DNA of 41,746 nt from Caldisericum sp. CG2_30_36_11 (GTDB lineage: Bacteria > Caldisericota > Caldisericia > Caldisericales > Caldisericaceae). The position numbers and the translations under genes were made by a program. The notes beneath the pieces were generated by a model. The model saw only the letters and a list, made by a program, of their open reading frames with translations, ran no database searches and was not told the DNA's origin. Of the stretch, positions 33,464 through 41,746 are shown one piece after another. Numbering within the stretch: the stretch's first letter is position 1; every line of letters begins with the position of its first letter. Location: the NCBI GenBank assembly GCA_001871575.1, contig MNXV01000023.1, positions 1 through 41,746 on the forward strand, given 5' to 3'.

Positions 33464-33652
33464 CTAAGCTAATTTTTTAATATAAACCTTAGAACCTGTA
33501 CTATTAATCAAAATTGGGTAAGATGTTCCCTCAAGAAAATTCTTATTTACAATACCACAGATATATACACCATCGGAACCCGTTATCAAATTGTCTGCCT
33601 CTTTATAATTCTTTCCGCAAAGAGAGCATCTTGGTTCGCCTACTTCTTTCAC
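33464..33652 (-). CDS. Minigene resembling a degenerate ClpX N-terminal zinc-binding domain (no ATPase domain)
   Basis: GTG start overlapping the clpP stop (GTGA); [39 protein letters not shown]..., compare CSFCGKS..V..LIAGP.VYICDECV of ClpX. Sits between clpP and lon. Confidence 0.65.
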
Positions 33653-35511: not shown

Positions 35512-35595
35512 TGGTGCGAAGGGCGGGACTTGAACCCGCATGAGTTTCCTCACTGGATCCTAAGTCCAGCGCGTCTGCCATTCCGCCACCCTCGC
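35512..35595 (-). tRNA. tRNA-Leu (TAG)
   Basis: Class II tRNA; anticodon loop CTTAGGA; encoded CCA; GCGAGGG/CCTTCGC acceptor. Confidence 0.93.
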
Positions 35596-35614
35596 AGAAA
35601 TCTCAAATAAAAAA

Positions 35615-35690
35615 TGGTGGGTCCTGCGGGACTCGAACCCGCAACCTACGGATTAAGAGTCCGTTGCTCTACCAATTGAGCCAAGGACCC
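35615..35690 (-). tRNA. tRNA-Lys (CTT)
   Basis: Anticodon loop CTCTTAA; GGGTCCT/AGGACCC acceptor; encoded CCA. Confidence 0.94.
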
Positions 35691-35698
35691 ACCTAAAA

Positions 35699-35775
35699 TG
35701 GCGCGCCTAGCAGGATTCGAACCCGCAGCCAACGGATCCGAAGTCCGTTGCTCTATCCAATTGAGCTATAGGCGC
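35699..35775 (-). tRNA. tRNA-Arg (TCG)
   Basis: Anticodon loop CTTCGGA; GCGCCTA/TAGGCGC acceptor; encoded CCA. Confidence 0.93.
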
Positions 35776-35778
35776 ACC

Positions 35779-35855
35779 TGGTGCGCCCAACAGGATTCGA
35801 ACCTGCGACCTGCGGATTAGGAATCCACTGCTCTATCCTTCTGAGCTATGGGCGC
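35779..35855 (-). tRNA. tRNA-Arg (CCT)
   Basis: Anticodon loop TTCCTAA; GCGCCCA/TGGGCGC acceptor; encoded CCA. Confidence 0.93.
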
Positions 35856-35874
35856 TCAACAACATCAACACATA

Positions 35875-35951
35875 TGGGGTGGGTGAGGAGATTTGAACTC
35901 CCAACGGCCGGATCCACAGTCCGGTACTCTAACCATTGAGCTACACCCACC
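35875..35951 (-). tRNA. tRNA-His (GTG)
   Basis: Anticodon loop CTGTGGA; extra G-1 opposite C73; encoded CCA. Confidence 0.94.
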
Positions 35952-35954
35952 ACA

Positions 35955-36031
35955 TGGCGCGCCCAGCCGGATTCGAACCAGCGACCGACGGATTAGAAAT
36001 CCGTTGCTCTATCCTACTGAGCTATGGGCGC
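35955..36031 (-). tRNA. tRNA-Arg (TCT)
   Basis: Anticodon loop TTTCTAA; GCGCCCA/TGGGCGC acceptor; encoded CCA. Confidence 0.94.
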
Positions 36032-36033
36032 GA

Positions 36034-36110
36034 TGGTCGGGGCGAGTGGATTCGAACCACCGGTCTCATGGTCCCAAACCATGCGCGTTACCAAACTACG
36101 CCACACCCCG
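36034..36110 (-). tRNA. tRNA-Pro (TGG)
   Basis: Anticodon loop TTTGGGA; CGGGGTG/CGCCCCG acceptor; encoded CCA. Confidence 0.94.
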
Positions 36111-36120
36111 AGCATCTACT

Positions 36121-36148
36121 ATTTTATATATTCACGATAAAAAATCAA
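36121..36148 (-). promoter_or_regulatory. Putative sigma70-type promoter of the tRNA cluster
   Basis: Minus strand TTGATT-16 bp-TAAAAT just upstream of tRNA-Pro. Confidence 0.6.
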
Positions 36149-36274
36149 GTAGTTATAAGAGTTAAATTAAACTTCTCAAGTTGACATTATATCTCAATTT
36201 GAATTAATCCTAAAGATTACTTTGAAAAAATATAATCTACTGAAAAGAGTGTAGATTTACTCTCTTCTAACCTG

Positions 36275-36635: not shown

Positions 36636-37451
36636 CTACGGAGTCCATGCAACTATTCTTGTCCATGCTGATTCCATTTCAATCCCCTTAACGTTAAAGG
36701 CACCCATATAAACTCTCTTATTACTGAGTTTATCTATATCACCGCCAAGATTTTCGGCATGAACCAATCTTCTGGGAAACAATTTTAAATGCATAATTTG
36801 ATAATAAACTTCTGGAGGGAACATTTCGTCCCAACTCTTTCCGTATTTTTCCTTAAGCCTCTTATCAGCTTCCTTGAAGAGACCTGGATGCCAGTTTCTC
36901 AAAATCGTATTCATCGGATGATCTGCACTTCCGCAATCAACACCAATCCACTTAAATTTCATAGAAAGAGCCCAATCTGGGAAATCAGGACTTGGTCCAG
37001 GGTGTTTAACCATATATCTTATTTCATCTACCCCCTGCTCATACCATGCGTACTTATGATAGCCAGTATTAATAATAAGGATATCTCCCTTTTTTATATC
37101 TACTTTCTTCATAAGCATTTCCGGAGTATATAAACCGTAATCCTCGACCTCATCAGAAATGTCAACCACTGCACCAGGGCCTACCCACTCTTCAAGTGGT
37201 ACCTGTCCTACTGCTCTTCCTGCACCATAAAAGTGAATCTCACCATCCATATGTGTTCCAACATGGTTACTTGAGGTAATAATTTGACCATTAGCTCCCT
37301 GTCCCATATGGGCACCAGCAATTCTTTTAAAATACTGAAGCCCAAGAGGCATGTAACTTGGCCATGGAGGTGTATGAATACTTAAGGGCTGAGTTAAATC
37401 ATACATCTTTACTTCTTCTGTCATAAACTTTATAAATTCTTCGCTTGTCAT
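36636..37451 (-). CDS. Cyclase-family metal-dependent hydrolase (kynurenine-formamidase-like)
   Basis: SNHVGTHMDGEIHFYGAGRAVGQVPLEEWVGPGAVVDIS matches the HxGTHxDxPxHF metal-binding signature. Confidence 0.88.
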   Translation of the reverse strand: MTSEEFIKFMTEEVKMYDLTQPLSIHTPPWPSYMPLGLQYFKRIAGAHMGQGANGQIITSSNHVGTHMDGEIHFYGAGRAVGQVPLEEWVGPGAVVDISDEVEDYGLYTPEMLMKKVDIKKGDILIINTGYHKYAWYEQGVDEIRYMVKHPGPSPDFPDWALSMKFKWIGVDCGSADHPMNTILRNWHPGLFKEADKRLKEKYGKSWDEMFPPEVYYQIMHLKLFPRRLVHAENLGGDIDKLSNKRVYMGAFNVKGIEMESAWTRIVAWTP

Positions 37452-37609
37452 AATATCCTCCCCTGAATAATTTTATTATTCTACTTAAATAAAAGTTAGA
37501 AGCAGGAAACAATTTAATACCTTATAGAATGCTACTTCCTAAAACTAAAGAGATGTCTTAAGTCAGTTAAGTATAGCATAGAGTAAAAATAAGAAAGTAA
37601 TTCACCCTT

Positions 37610-37789
37610 CTATTTATTCCCCAACAATTTTTTTAATGCGTCCAAAGTTTCTTCATCTTCAGTGGCAGGCGGTTTCCAATCGATCTGAATGGTTTTAACT
37701 CCTTCCTTATCAAGGCTTTCCTTGAATGAAAGTAAACCAATGTTAATAACCTTTAATTCCTTTTTAAAAAGTTCGTTTGCCAACATCAT
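37610..37789 (-). CDS. Small fdrA-domain-type protein (59 aa), missed by the ORF track
   Basis: MMLANELFKKELKVINIGLLSFKESLDKEGVKTIQIDWKPPATEDEETLDALKKLLGNK*; start overlaps the FdrA stop (TAATG). Confidence 0.8.
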   Translation of the reverse strand: MMLANELFKKELKVINIGLLSFKESLDKEGVKTIQIDWKPPATEDEETLDALKKLLGNK

Positions 37790-39342
37790 TAACCTCCAAT
37801 ACTCTTTAAAATATATCCGGCTAATCTCGTTGCTGAAGCATTCCTTTCAAATACCACTGCACCAGCATCCTTAAGCATGCTTATAAGTTTTGCTTTATCC
37901 TGAGGATCTTTATCTGTTCCAGTAACAGTTGCAATAATAATTGCATTGCTTATTTCTCTTGCTTTTTTAATTACAGGTGTCAGCTCTTCAGCAGGATTAG
38001 GATTGGTACCATAACCTATAACAACATCAAGATAAATAATTGCAACGGTCGGATCATTTGCTTCGTTAAGTATTCGTTTATTTCTCAATTCAAAATCAAT
38101 CTGTGGATGAGGTCTTCCAACTGTAAATTCATCCTCGCCAAGATCAACTGCAGTATGTCCGACACTTTTCCAGGAATCTTCAAGTTTAAGAGAAGGATCA
38201 AGCGGAGCGTTAGAATTTATACCTCCTAAAATATCCTTCAGGAGAACCTGGGTTTCATAGACAAGGGTCCCTCCCTGGAACAAGCCTCTAAAATACTTCT
38301 GCTCTCCTGTTAATTTCCTTGCAAGTTGTGAAGCCAATTCTTTTAATTCACCATCTTTACGACCAATCTCTTTCTCAAAGTCTTCCATAGAAATACCCTT
38401 AGAAATACTAACTGCAAGAAGTGAGGCATGTTCAAGGTCTTTTGCTGGAATTGCACCAATCTTTTTAACTAATTCAGGGTCTGCTCCAAGGAAAGCAGCA
38501 ACAACTGGCTTATCGGTCTTCTTGAGAATTTCACCTATTTTTTCAAGAACTTCCGGGTGTGGTGGCTTGGAAACAAGTGTAATGACCTTTGTTTCAGGAT
38601 CATCAATAAGAGCTTCAAGCCCGGTAAGGAAAGACATGCCTTGATAATCCTTCTTGACATCTATCCCACCTGTACCAATACCCTGTGAAATACCGCCACC
38701 TGCATTTGAAATGATACAGCTAACTTCCTGAAGTCCTGTACCTGCAGCAGAAACAATTCCAATATCACCTCTATTAACTACATTCGCAAAACCAAGCGGT
38801 GCACCATTTATGATGGCTGTACCACAGTCAGGACCCATCACAAGAAGGCCATGTTCTCTTCCATATTTTTTTACCTCAAACGCTTTATCTTTTGGAACAT
38901 TATCCGAGAAGATCATCACATGCAGACCATGCTCTAAAGCTTTCATTGCTTCTCTTGCTGCATACCTACCTGCAACCGATACAATAACCATATTTGCATC
39001 GGGTAAAATTTCTAAAGCTCCTTCAAGACTCTTGGGCATATATTCTTCAGATTCCCGAGACCCCAGGTTTTTAGTTTTCAGAAGTTCTTCTACCTTCTGA
39101 ATCGCTGTAATGGCTAATAATTCATCTTTTGCCTTTACCGCAATAAGCAAATCTGATTCTGATGCTCCTTTAAATTCCTCTATTAATAGTCCGGAGGATT
39201 CGAGAATTGACTTATTCTCTTTTGTGCCAATCATCAAAGCTGCATCTTCAACGCCATTAAGTTTTGTTGCTTCTCGAGCAACCAACATAAGGGCTACAGA
39301 ATCATAATATTCGCCCTTTTTAATAACTCCTTTCACTGCCAT
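37789..39342 (-). CDS. fdrA: FdrA/AllF family protein (acyl-CoA synthetase-like fold)
   Basis: YDSVALMLVAREATKLNGVEDAALMIGTKENK, VMGPDCGTAIINGAPLGFANVVNRGDIGIVSAAGTGLQEV, YLDVVIGYGTNPNPAEEL. Confidence 0.9.
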   Translation of the reverse strand: MAVKGVIKKGEYYDSVALMLVAREATKLNGVEDAALMIGTKENKSILESSGLLIEEFKGASESDLLIAVKAKDELLAITAIQKVEELLKTKNLGSRESEEYMPKSLEGALEILPDANMVIVSVAGRYAAREAMKALEHGLHVMIFSDNVPKDKAFEVKKYGREHGLLVMGPDCGTAIINGAPLGFANVVNRGDIGIVSAAGTGLQEVSCIISNAGGGISQGIGTGGIDVKKDYQGMSFLTGLEALIDDPETKVITLVSKPPHPEVLEKIGEILKKTDKPVVAAFLGADPELVKKIGAIPAKDLEHASLLAVSISKGISMEDFEKEIGRKDGELKELASQLARKLTGEQKYFRGLFQGGTLVYETQVLLKDILGGINSNAPLDPSLKLEDSWKSVGHTAVDLGEDEFTVGRPHPQIDFELRNKRILNEANDPTVAIIYLDVVIGYGTNPNPAEELTPVIKKAREISNAIIIATVTGTDKDPQDKAKLISMLKDAGAVVFERNASATRLAGYILKSIGG

Positions 39343-40196
39343 AACAAACCTCCTTCTAAAAATTTTTTCAAACTAATAATAAAACCAGTTAAAATATCTG
39401 CACCCGATGTTTCTCCGAAATTAAGTATTCTACGAGTAACAGATTCAACATTTTTCCCATCAGACAAAATAGCCAATAAATAATCTTTAAAATATTCATA
39501 AAAACGACCAACTGAAGAATAATAGATAAATGTATTGCTTAATACATTGCCATTTGAAGATTGAAGATAAAATTTCTCTCTTATATTTACGGTTTTCACC
39601 CCGGAAAGTTGTTCGAAAATATAAAGAGCAATGACTATTCCATTAATAATATCGTCTCCCTGGGGCGTTAAACCAAAACCAACGCCCTTTAATTCATTAA
39701 CCGCATCAAAATAACCATTCATCAAAGCTTTAAAAGTGATTTTAATTTTTTCCTTTAAATTTCTTTCGAACAGTGTTTTAAAAAACTTCTCTCTACCGTC
39801 ATCTAAAAGAAATGCACTGCTGAACTGAGGAGCTTCTTCTACAACAACTTTCTCTGAAATTTGTAAATTGCACATAAATTCGCCCCTGTTCAAACTTGAT
39901 ATGAAAATCTCTGAATCATACTTCTCTGCTCCACTAAAACCAATCCCATAATCGTCTAAATACAAAATCTTATCATGCCAATTTATATATTTAAACTGGC
40001 GGAAGTCATCAATATCTACCACAATGTTATTAGGTCCTCTTCCTACAGCAGGCGCAACAATAGAGATAATTCGGGATGAAACTAACAAATTAATTACATT
40101 CCTGAAGGTAGAGTGAATCCTGATTTGTTTCCAATCACTATTCAGATTTATACAATCACCAAAGGATTTAACCATCAAAGCTATTTTTTGCATCAT
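39333..40196 (-). CDS. DUF2877 (AllH-like) protein; start revised to the internal Met
   Basis: GVGFGLTPQGDDIINGIVIAL signature and SNTFIYYSSVGRFYEYFKDYLLAI. The called start at 40295 overlaps a terminator and the upstream CDS; MMQKIALM (40196) is preferred. Confidence 0.75.
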   Translation of the reverse strand: MMQKIALMVKSFGDCINLNSDWKQIRIHSTFRNVINLLVSSRIISIVAPAVGRGPNNIVVDIDDFRQFKYINWHDKILYLDDYGIGFSGAEKYDSEIFISSLNRGEFMCNLQISEKVVVEEAPQFSSAFLLDDGREKFFKTLFERNLKEKIKITFKALMNGYFDAVNELKGVGFGLTPQGDDIINGIVIALYIFEQLSGVKTVNIREKFYLQSSNGNVLSNTFIYYSSVGRFYEYFKDYLLAILSDGKNVESVTRRILNFGETSGADILTGFIISLKKFLEGGLLWQ

Positions 40197-40216
40197 TTTT
40201 ATCTTCTCTTCAGTAA

Positions 40217-40245
40217 AAATAAAACCCCCAGGATAATTTTGGGGG
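40217..40245 (-). terminator. Intrinsic terminator downstream of the 40267-40992 gene
   Basis: Minus strand CCCCCA-aaattatcc-TGGGGG followed by TTTTATTTTT. Confidence 0.8.
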
Positions 40246-40266
40246 ATTAAAGAATATTTAATTAAA

Positions 40267-40992
40267 TTATTCTTCAAGTCCTTCTGGGACTTCAAAGTGC
40301 TCTGCTGCCTTCAGCATATCTTCCGGAACCGGACTTATAAGGCCAGAGCCAATATAGTCCTCGAGATATTTCTTTACTGTGGTGTTCCAGTATTCTTTTG
40401 TTACATAGTAAACCCTTGCTCCACCAAGTTCATGTTGAACATCAGGCCACGGATAAGATGGTTGAGCCATTCCTATTCCCCATCTCTTCCATCCGTTGTA
40501 ACTTTCATAAGTAGCCCAGAATTCTTTTTGCCCGAGAATTTCAAAAGCATAATAGCACTTTGCATAATACATTACAGCACCAGCCTTCATGCCTCTCATA
40601 AATGCAAGTGTGTGCAAACTGATGTTTATATCCTCATCCATAAGTCTTCCATTTGCAAATGCTGCAAGTTTACCATCTACTACACCAACAAAATTGTAAG
40701 GGTCCTTTAATCTATTTCTTAACCAGCCAAGAAGTTCTGCATAAACTCTTGCGCCCACGATGTCATAAAAATCATGGTCAATGTCTAAAAGATTTTTTAC
40801 AGTAGGAAGTAAAAGGGGAATTTCATCTTTCCTCATTTCCCTGATAACCATCTTCTTCCCGTTTGGAAGTTCAATAAACATTGGACTCCATGGCGGGAGA
40901 ATCATCGGCGAACCGCTTAATATAGGTTCAATTTCTTCTACTTTGAAGACAATTTCGGATTGTGAAACTTTAACTGGCGGTTGTTTTTTCAT
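40267..40992 (-). CDS. Uncharacterised protein, possibly GNAT-fold; paralog of the gene at 41152
   Basis: 241 aa; shares YDIVGARV[YF]AELL, NISLHT, AGAV.YYAK..YAFE, EFWAT.ESYNGW, SYPWP..QHELGGA with the 41152 ORF. Confidence 0.75.
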   Translation of the reverse strand: MKKQPPVKVSQSEIVFKVEEIEPILSGSPMILPPWSPMFIELPNGKKMVIREMRKDEIPLLLPTVKNLLDIDHDFYDIVGARVYAELLGWLRNRLKDPYNFVGVVDGKLAAFANGRLMDEDINISLHTLAFMRGMKAGAVMYYAKCYYAFEILGQKEFWATYESYNGWKRWGIGMAQPSYPWPDVQHELGGARVYYVTKEYWNTTVKKYLEDYIGSGLISPVPEDMLKAAEHFEVPEGLEE

Positions 40993-41023
40993 TGTACTAC
41001 CTCCCTTTCAAAAAGATGTCTTA

Positions 41024-41052
41024 ATTTTATCAAAAAATCTTTATTAAGTCAA
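41024..41052 (-). promoter_or_regulatory. Putative sigma70-type promoter for the 40267-40992 gene
   Basis: Minus strand TTGACT-17 bp-TAAAAT. Confidence 0.65.
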
Positions 41053-41090
41053 TAGAGCGAATTGAAATTAAATTTTAGGTAAATAACTTA

Positions 41091-41118
41091 TTGACACCGC
41101 AGTTTTAACAGATATAAT
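41091..41118 (+). promoter_or_regulatory. Putative consensus sigma70-type promoter for the 41152 gene
   Basis: TTGACA-16 bp-TATAAT followed by aaggagg RBS and ATG at 41152. Confidence 0.78.
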
Positions 41119-41151
41119 ATAATCAAATTTTATTAAATATAAGGAGGCATT

Positions 41152-41746
41152 ATGAAAAAGCAAATTCCTGTAAAACTCAGGAAAAGCGAGTACAAATTCG
41201 ATGCAGAATGGCTGGAAGGATTGCTGCAAGCCCCTATTAGAGTCCCTGAACTTAAACCCATGTGGTCCGAGATTTTAGACAAACAAGGAAACAAGCATGA
41301 TGTTCTTATTCGTCCAATCAAGGAAGAAGAAATCGACCCGGTGCTTGGTATTCTTCAAAAATTTCTATTCGCCGAATATGACTACTATGATATTGTCGGG
41401 GCAAGAGTATTTGCAGAACTACTTGCCATTAAAAGAAAGAGAATGAAAGACGAATACTTTTTCTTAGGATTAGAAAACGGAGTTCCCGTAGGTATTGCAA
41501 ACGGAAGGATCCTAAATGAAAAAGTAAACATCAGCCTGCATACCATGGCCTTTTTAAGACAAGTTAATGCTGGCGCTGTCCTTTATTATGCAAAGGCGTG
41601 GTATGCTTTTGAGCTATGCAAAAATGAAGAGTTCTGGGCAACATTTGAAAGTTATAATGGCTGGGTGCTTGGTGGACTTCGCATGGCAATGCATAGCTAC
41701 CCCTGGCCAGAATATCAACACGAACTAGGCGGTGCTACCGTTTTTT
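41152..41746 (+). CDS. Uncharacterised protein, 3' partial at the window end; divergent paralog of 40267-40992
   Basis: Open from ATG 41152 to the window end (198 codons): MKKQIPVKLRKSEYKFDAEW...YYDIVGARVFAELL...NISLHTMAFLRQVNAGAVLYYAKAWYAFE...ESYNGW...SYPWPEYQHELGGATVF. Confidence 0.85.
   Translation, partial: MKKQIPVKLRKSEYKFDAEWLEGLLQAPIRVPELKPMWSEILDKQGNKHDVLIRPIKEEEIDPVLGILQKFLFAEYDYYDIVGARVFAELLAIKRKRMKDEYFFLGLENGVPVGIANGRILNEKVNISLHTMAFLRQVNAGAVLYYAKAWYAFELCKNEEFWATFESYNGWVLGGLRMAMHSYPWPEYQHELGGATVF

Follow-up and report, generated by a model that had tools for sequence, protein, structure and literature searches.

Genes of a probable AllFGH nucleobase-breakdown island at the end of a Caldisericum contig

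We analyzed a stretch of 41,746 nucleotides from Caldisericum sp. CG2_30_36_11 (contig MNXV01000023.1, hereafter the window), in which a prediction made from the sequence alone had pointed to a gene cluster around FdrA and an AllH-like (DUF2877) protein. The window makes up the whole of contig C64 of a metagenome-assembled genome (MAG; 1.22 Mb, 95 contigs, estimated 90.5% complete) whose relatives belong to Caldisericota; G, L and C numbers are our labels for genomes, loci and contigs. All open reading frames (ORFs) of the original prediction were present where it had placed them. On the minus strand, reading leftwards from 40992, they encode a 241-aa GNAT-like protein, AllH, FdrA, a 59-aa protein and, after a gap of 158 bp, a 271-aa cyclase-family hydrolase. 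The first four ORFs overlap each other, which suggests that they form one translationally coupled operon. A comparison across genomes, proposed with the original prediction, showed that the neighbourhood is not unique to this MAG. Its gene order was kept in many genomes, therefore the arrangement is not due to chance.

FdrA (517 aa, 37789-39342, minus strand) scored 487.5 bits against NCBIfam NF004760 ‘FdrA’, for which the cut-off is 433, and its closest solved relative was 3dmy ‘Protein fdrA’ (E=3e-81), identifying it as the AllF subunit. AllH (39333-40295, minus strand) scored 67.2 bits against PF11392 (cut-off 25). It is annotated with 320 aa from a TTG codon; since most relatives have 270-302 aa, the true start is probably located about 30 codons downstream. 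In one genome only (G016, L045:6623-8190), FdrA was found in two pieces with a TGA, either by an assembly error or as a pseudogene.

The name of the NCBIfam model implies that FdrA could be an acyl-CoA synthetase and that the island activates a carboxylic acid. FdrA does contain the Ligase_CoA domain (PF00549) and is similar to succinyl-CoA synthetase, and thiolase-like and decarboxylase genes were neighbours in some lineages. In E. coli, however, AllF, AllG and AllH together were characterized biochemically as a transcarbamylase, oxamic transcarbamylase, which converts oxalurate and phosphate into oxamate and carbamoyl phosphate (Kim and Kim 2024, PMC11326118). The links of FdrA to AllG and a ring-opening hydrolase were, moreover, consistent, and we regard the synthetase function as highly improbable.

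The FdrA of the window covers only positions 3-494 of the 555-aa FdrA model. The 59-aa ORF (37610-37789, minus strand), which overlaps the stop codon of FdrA, matched residues 508-554 of the same model (E=1.9e-6). When it was compared with eight relatives, nonsynonymous divergence (dN) was about 0.2-0.3 and synonymous divergence (dS) ranged from 1.8 to saturated; in the comparisons with the window sequence, the proportions were 0.18-0.24 (pN) against 0.68-0.87 (pS). This result indicated that the ORF encodes a real protein on which purifying selection is strong. In relatives with a 475-aa AllG, the N-terminus of that protein matched the same positions of the FdrA model and aligned with the 59-aa ORF, and two genomes encode FdrA, this domain and AllG as a single fused protein of 1,039-1,054 aa. 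Because of these matches and fusions, we read the 59-aa ORF, from its sequence, as the detached linker domain of the FdrA/AllG junction. The domain may be carried on FdrA, as at the end of E. coli AllF, or on AllG, within a fusion, or alone. This reading explains ORFs of the ‘59-aa fdrA-domain’ kind as mobile linkers that join AllF and AllG.

The cyclase-family gene (36636-37451, minus strand), which lies outside the cluster coordinates of the original prediction (37610-40992), was correctly named there as the next gene: the 271-aa product scored 114 bits against PF04199. It was the most conserved gene of the island, with 82-88% identity to its closest relatives. Its relatives of solved structure are kynurenine formamidases. 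This fold family and the HxGTHxD...H metal motif are shared by bacterial kynurenine formamidase and by isatin hydrolase, which is a cyclic amidohydrolase (PMC6117287). The motif of the window protein is HVGTHMDGEIH, in which Glu replaces Pro of HxG[T/A]HxDxPxH, and the isatin signature GLQC/GLAS was not found in the 271-aa sequence. We propose that it is a metal-dependent amidohydrolase and the ring-opening enzyme of the island.

The first gene of the operon (40267-40992, minus strand) encodes the 241-aa protein, here named GNATL1. It gave no Pfam match at E<=0.1 and no NCBIfam match. The suggestion that it might be GNAT-like agreed with its predicted fold: an AlphaFold model with a pLDDT of 79.3 had acetyltransferase-type structures as its best Foldseek matches (best E 1.4e-5), with TM-scores, normalized by query, of only about 0.3-0.5. 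An alignment of 17 GNATL members contained about 50 invariant columns, including YPxPxxQHELGG. The acyl-CoA loop is atypical, reading RGx[KR]xGA in most members instead of RxxGxG or the wider pattern R/QxxGxG/A, thus acyltransfer should not be assumed. A second member, GNATL2, which was absent from the original prediction, lies on the plus strand at 41152-41745 and is cut by the contig end after at least 198 aa. It is 50% identical to GNATL1. The divergent intergenic region between both genes (159 bp, 40993-41151) presumably holds the promoters for both halves of the island.

GNATL is a previously undescribed family with a predicted GNAT fold, and it tracked AllG in most genomes tested. In the taxonomic family of the window, AllG was present in 14 of 15 GNATL-positive genomes, the exception being this MAG, and in none of three GNATL-negative genomes. 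It was also present in 11 of 13 further genomes with GNATL; after removal of three members of the same phylum that had already been seen, as judged from identical contig coordinates, the count outside the phylum was 8/10. The same AllG search was positive in 1 of 14 well-known genomes used as control. The neighbours of the GNAT-like gene were uninformative in the L016, L020 and L019 genomes. ORFs of 515 aa that had been grouped with GNATL were rejected as members, being methylmalonyl-CoA decarboxylase alpha-like carboxyltransferases joined through one fused ORF (L017, 743 aa). As for its role, our guess would be an N-acyltransferase or a ligand-binding helper of the pathway.

The original prediction had stressed that the cluster lacks AllG (DUF1116), and had named the finding of this gene elsewhere as what would overturn it. 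AllG was found neither in the window nor in the rest of the 90.5%-complete MAG. At the position where most relatives carry the AllG core, the window has an AT-rich gap of 158 bp (37452-37609, minus strand), ending in a ribosome-binding-like site, GGGGAGG, before the cyclase. Three-frame translation of the gap gave stop codons in all frames and no remnant of AllG. Of the searched genomes of the phylum, 24 including this MAG were FdrA-positive, and AllG was present in all of the 23 others. The usual order in the phylum was GNATL, AllH, FdrA, AllG (as 475 aa, or as 59 aa plus about 414 aa), cyclase, three subunits of xanthine dehydrogenase (XDH) type and an NCS2 permease. In G019, G020 and G022, AllG belonged to the same operon as the first cyclase and lay downstream of it.

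A different arrangement was found in the genus g9 (G013, G015, G017), where the FdrA locus resembles that of the window and lacks AllG. These genomes have a second locus with GNATL2, hydroxylase subunits, a double cyclase, the 414-aa AllG core, two small genes and the permease (L052, L053, L056), and L054 showed the identical order up to its contig end. In G018 (L078), GNATL2, the double cyclase and AllG lie together, with GNATL2 at 1.7 kb from AllG. The GNATL2 of the window grouped with the second-locus GNATL2 clade of g9 and G018, as sister of the G018 protein (81% identity, support 99/99). The double cyclase of this locus has 545 aa; none of the copies seen (L053:14744-16381, L052, L054, L056, L078-L081, L090) retained the metal-binding His and Asp in its first half, while the second half keeps the motif. 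Because of this loss the first half is probably non-catalytic, which would make the protein half a pseudo-enzyme. The island version f2 has, beside AllH, a HutP-like antiterminator (PF09021, E=7e-32; L080:1596-2045, also L077, L079 and L081), which is possibly a ligand-dependent regulator.

The block of the second locus, namely AllG, the double cyclase, the molybdenum hydroxylase of the island type and the NCS2 permease, was undetected anywhere in the MAG. Attempts to bridge the gap through other contigs failed, as the search for a double cyclase returned the cyclase of the window alone and that for the NCS2 permease returned nothing. XDH-like genes on C60 and C71 were ruled out as the island hydroxylase (36-43% identity, different neighbours). 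We concluded that AllG very probably lies just past the contig end, and that the second half of the island, whose first gene GNATL2 starts within the last 594 bases of the contig, was for the rest lost to an assembly gap, because one gap after GNATL2 accounts for all the absences and a real loss must explain each. Its absence from the MAG and the clean gap at its usual position could also mean that AllG was truly lost, with FdrA, AllH, the 59-aa domain and the cyclase processing another substrate in its absence. This reading is very unlikely, since all 23 relatives retain AllG, those with the same local gap carry it at the second locus, and here the second locus is absent in one piece, next to a contig end. 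An AllG-free system was rejected as the likeliest reading for the same retention in relatives and for the end of the contig at GNATL2. The observation of the original prediction thus stands for the window and the MAG, but its premise was very probably wrong, with relatives placing the gene just outside.

The island is found in Caldisericota and several other phyla. Taken jointly with the pathway proposed below, we consider it probable on balance that the window holds the first half (GNATL1-AllH-FdrA-59-aa linker-cyclase) of a two-part AllFGH island for nucleobase catabolism, in which AllG has moved to the second half. The genes would then probably be half of a conserved and unstudied bacterial island that degrades a nucleobase and conserves some of its energy as carbamoyl phosphate. 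The idea of a variant carbamoyl- or acyl-transfer pathway with a different substrate was accordingly kept as an AllFGH-type carbamoyl-transfer variant whose substrate is probably different; its AllG-less form was dropped. Gene content, order, conservation and rearrangement, together with the linker domain and the predicted GNAT fold, are shown by the sequences; the place of AllG, the carbamoyl transfer, the substrate and each catalytic step are inferred. This reading is strongest in its anatomy, in how it explains the linker domain and in the position predicted for AllG, and weakest in the substrate.

In the proposed pathway, the NCS2 permease would import a nucleobase, which the molybdenum hydroxylase would oxidize. 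The cyclase would open the cyclic amide to yield an acyl-urea, and the complex of FdrA, the 59-aa protein, AllG and AllH would move the carbamoyl group to phosphate. From the resulting carbamoyl phosphate, a carbamate kinase encoded elsewhere would yield ATP. The likeliest route would be from uracil through barbiturate and ureidomalonate to carbamoyl phosphate and malonamate. Ureidomalonate, formed by opening of barbiturate, is an acyl-urea one CH2 longer than oxalurate.

Loci in other genomes made us favour such a pyrimidine substrate, because they include a uridine phosphorylase, a cytosine-deaminase-like gene and a Na+-pumping decarboxylase. The uridine phosphorylase, above its equivalog cut-off, and the cytosine-deaminase-like gene lie beside the cyclase and AllG (L018, L130). 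In two Spirochaetota loci, the hydroxylase, the decarboxylase, FdrA, AllG and the cyclase form one operon, in which the Na+-translocating biotin-dependent decarboxylase is encoded by an MmdA-like gene, a biotin carrier and a beta subunit (L127:3741-7264, L128:10054-13634); a leftover malonyl group would suit such an enzyme. The order in Thermotogaceae (L014) was hydroxylase, permease, AllH-like, FdrA, AllG, cyclase and GNATL. Two genomes, G002 and that of L016, have nucleoside-type Bmp uptake genes close by.

We propose, tentatively and as one possibility, an anaerobic, energy-conserving oxidative pyrimidine pathway, in which the hydroxylase makes barbiturate from uracil, the cyclase makes ureidomalonate, and AllFGH releases malonamate and carbamoyl phosphate for ATP formation. 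The malonyl group would be decarboxylated by the Na+-pumping enzyme in some lineages, and the GNAT-fold family would be dedicated to the pathway. The intermediates are those of the known oxidative pyrimidine pathway, which leads from uracil through barbiturate and ureidomalonate to urea and malonate by barbiturase and ureidomalonase (cited in PMC4051656). Barbiturase is of another family, with the Toblerone fold, and the cyclase and phosphorolysis of the island would replace the two hydrolases.

Several observations weigh against the two-part island and the pathway proposed for it. AllG was not seen in this MAG, and its loss to a gap is our inference. The molybdenum hydroxylase, composed of XDH-type subunits, scored under every NCBIfam substrate cut-off, hence no substrate could be assigned from these models. 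The NCS2 permease scored higher with xanthine models, closest to pbuX, than with uracil models, all below cut-off. Only the two Spirochaetota loci have the Na+-pumping decarboxylase within the operon; in G013 and G015 it is just adjacent. The carbamate kinase is encoded outside the operon and scored below its equivalog cut-off, and neither a malonamate amidase nor an enzyme for ureidomalonate was identified. Genes for 8-oxoguanine deaminase, YgeY and an allantoinase-like protein also occur in these genomes, which makes purine substrates possible.

With the same anatomy, the cyclase could open xanthine or urate to a ureido-imidazole carboxylate or a similar compound, and AllFGH could phosphorolyse the ureido group, in parallel to YgeW of the reductive urate pathway, an enzyme that uses phosphate to cleave a ureido group derived from urate (PMC12507026). 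The XDH-type subunits, the permease closest to pbuX, and the YgeY, allantoinase-like, OTC-family and carbamate kinase genes elsewhere in the relatives are consistent with it. The reductive urate pathway (XdhD, YgfK, SsnA, HyuA, YgeW, YqeA, YgeY, YgeX) shares with the island an XDH-type enzyme and the logic of ring opening followed by phosphorolytic cleavage to carbamoyl phosphate and ATP (PMC12507026). It uses SsnA/HyuA and YgeW, whereas the island has the cyclase and AllFGH, with YgeY- and OTC-like genes outside it, elsewhere in the genomes. However, oxalurate, the known substrate of AllFGH, is an acyl-urea with its urea on a carbonyl, unlike an aryl-urea; the hydroxylase was below the xanthine dehydrogenase cut-offs; and the uridine phosphorylase and cytosine-deaminase-like neighbours suggest pyrimidines. 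We consider a purine substrate doubtful.

The classical reaction of E. coli, in which allantoin-derived oxalurate gives oxamate and carbamoyl phosphate, is suggested by the homology of AllF, AllH and the AllG of relatives, by the known E. coli activity (PMC11326118) and by the allantoinase-like gene of G013. In that system, oxalurate is supplied by AllD, ureidoglycolate dehydrogenase, and AllK is the carbamate kinase. AllD was above cut-off in none of the 54 genomes of the phylum, was not found in this MAG, and gave no match whatever in 21 of the 24 FdrA-positive genomes. Since AllD gave no match above threshold, the substrate is probably not allantoin-derived oxalurate. The partners are, further, a hydroxylase, a cyclase and a permease rather than allantoin genes, and the classical function appears unlikely. 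Compared with E. coli AllFGH/AllK (PMC11326118), the island adds the XDH-type molybdenum hydroxylase, the cyclase-family hydrolase, the NCS2 permease and the GNAT-fold protein, has its linker domain alone or on AllG, and lacks a carbamate kinase in its operon. The allFGHK clusters of comammox and ammonia-oxidising archaea are another case of AllFGH outside enterobacteria and near nucleoside transporter genes. They are accompanied by biuret/triuret hydrolases, and the available text mentions neither a cyclase nor a molybdenum hydroxylase nor a GNAT-like gene (PMC12625717).

A search of the MAG for carbamate kinase, also proposed with the original prediction, found a homologue of 361 aa on contig C67 (TIGR00746, 276.8 bits versus a cut-off of 358). 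On either side of it is an OTC-family carbamoyltransferase, the two sharing 37% identity (L105:5213-8405, G000 contig C67), and all three genes scored under their equivalog cut-offs. Related clusters occurred in other genomes, with YgeY added in G003 and an allantoinase-like gene in G013. A second locus of this genome related to purines is on contig C60 (L103, 3-1893), where a C-terminal piece of another XDH-type subunit precedes an 8-oxoguanine deaminase-like gene that scored above its cut-off.

A search of the available literature combining FdrA or DUF1116 with cyclase-family protein or xanthine dehydrogenase returned nothing describing the island. AllFGH was recognized as a new type of transcarbamylase in 2024, with oxamate only. 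Here deep-branching anaerobes have the complex without the enzyme that forms oxalurate in E. coli and in association with a ring-opening hydrolase and a permease for nucleobases, which points to a wider class of AllFGH substrates and to phosphorolytic ATP harvest from nucleobases. The island also gives a target in a cultured genus, Caldisericum, for assays.

Two further features were noticed elsewhere in the window. An array of seven tRNA genes (Leu, Lys, three Arg, His, Pro) lies at 35512-36110 on the minus strand, and the plus-strand ORFs of 52-90 aa that overlap it (35781-36184) are spurious antisense ORFs. Between clpP and lon, a 62-aa ORF (33464-33652, minus strand) contains the C4 zinc finger of ClpX (PF06689, E=2e-9) and stands alone there, the ATPase part of ClpX being absent between the two genes.

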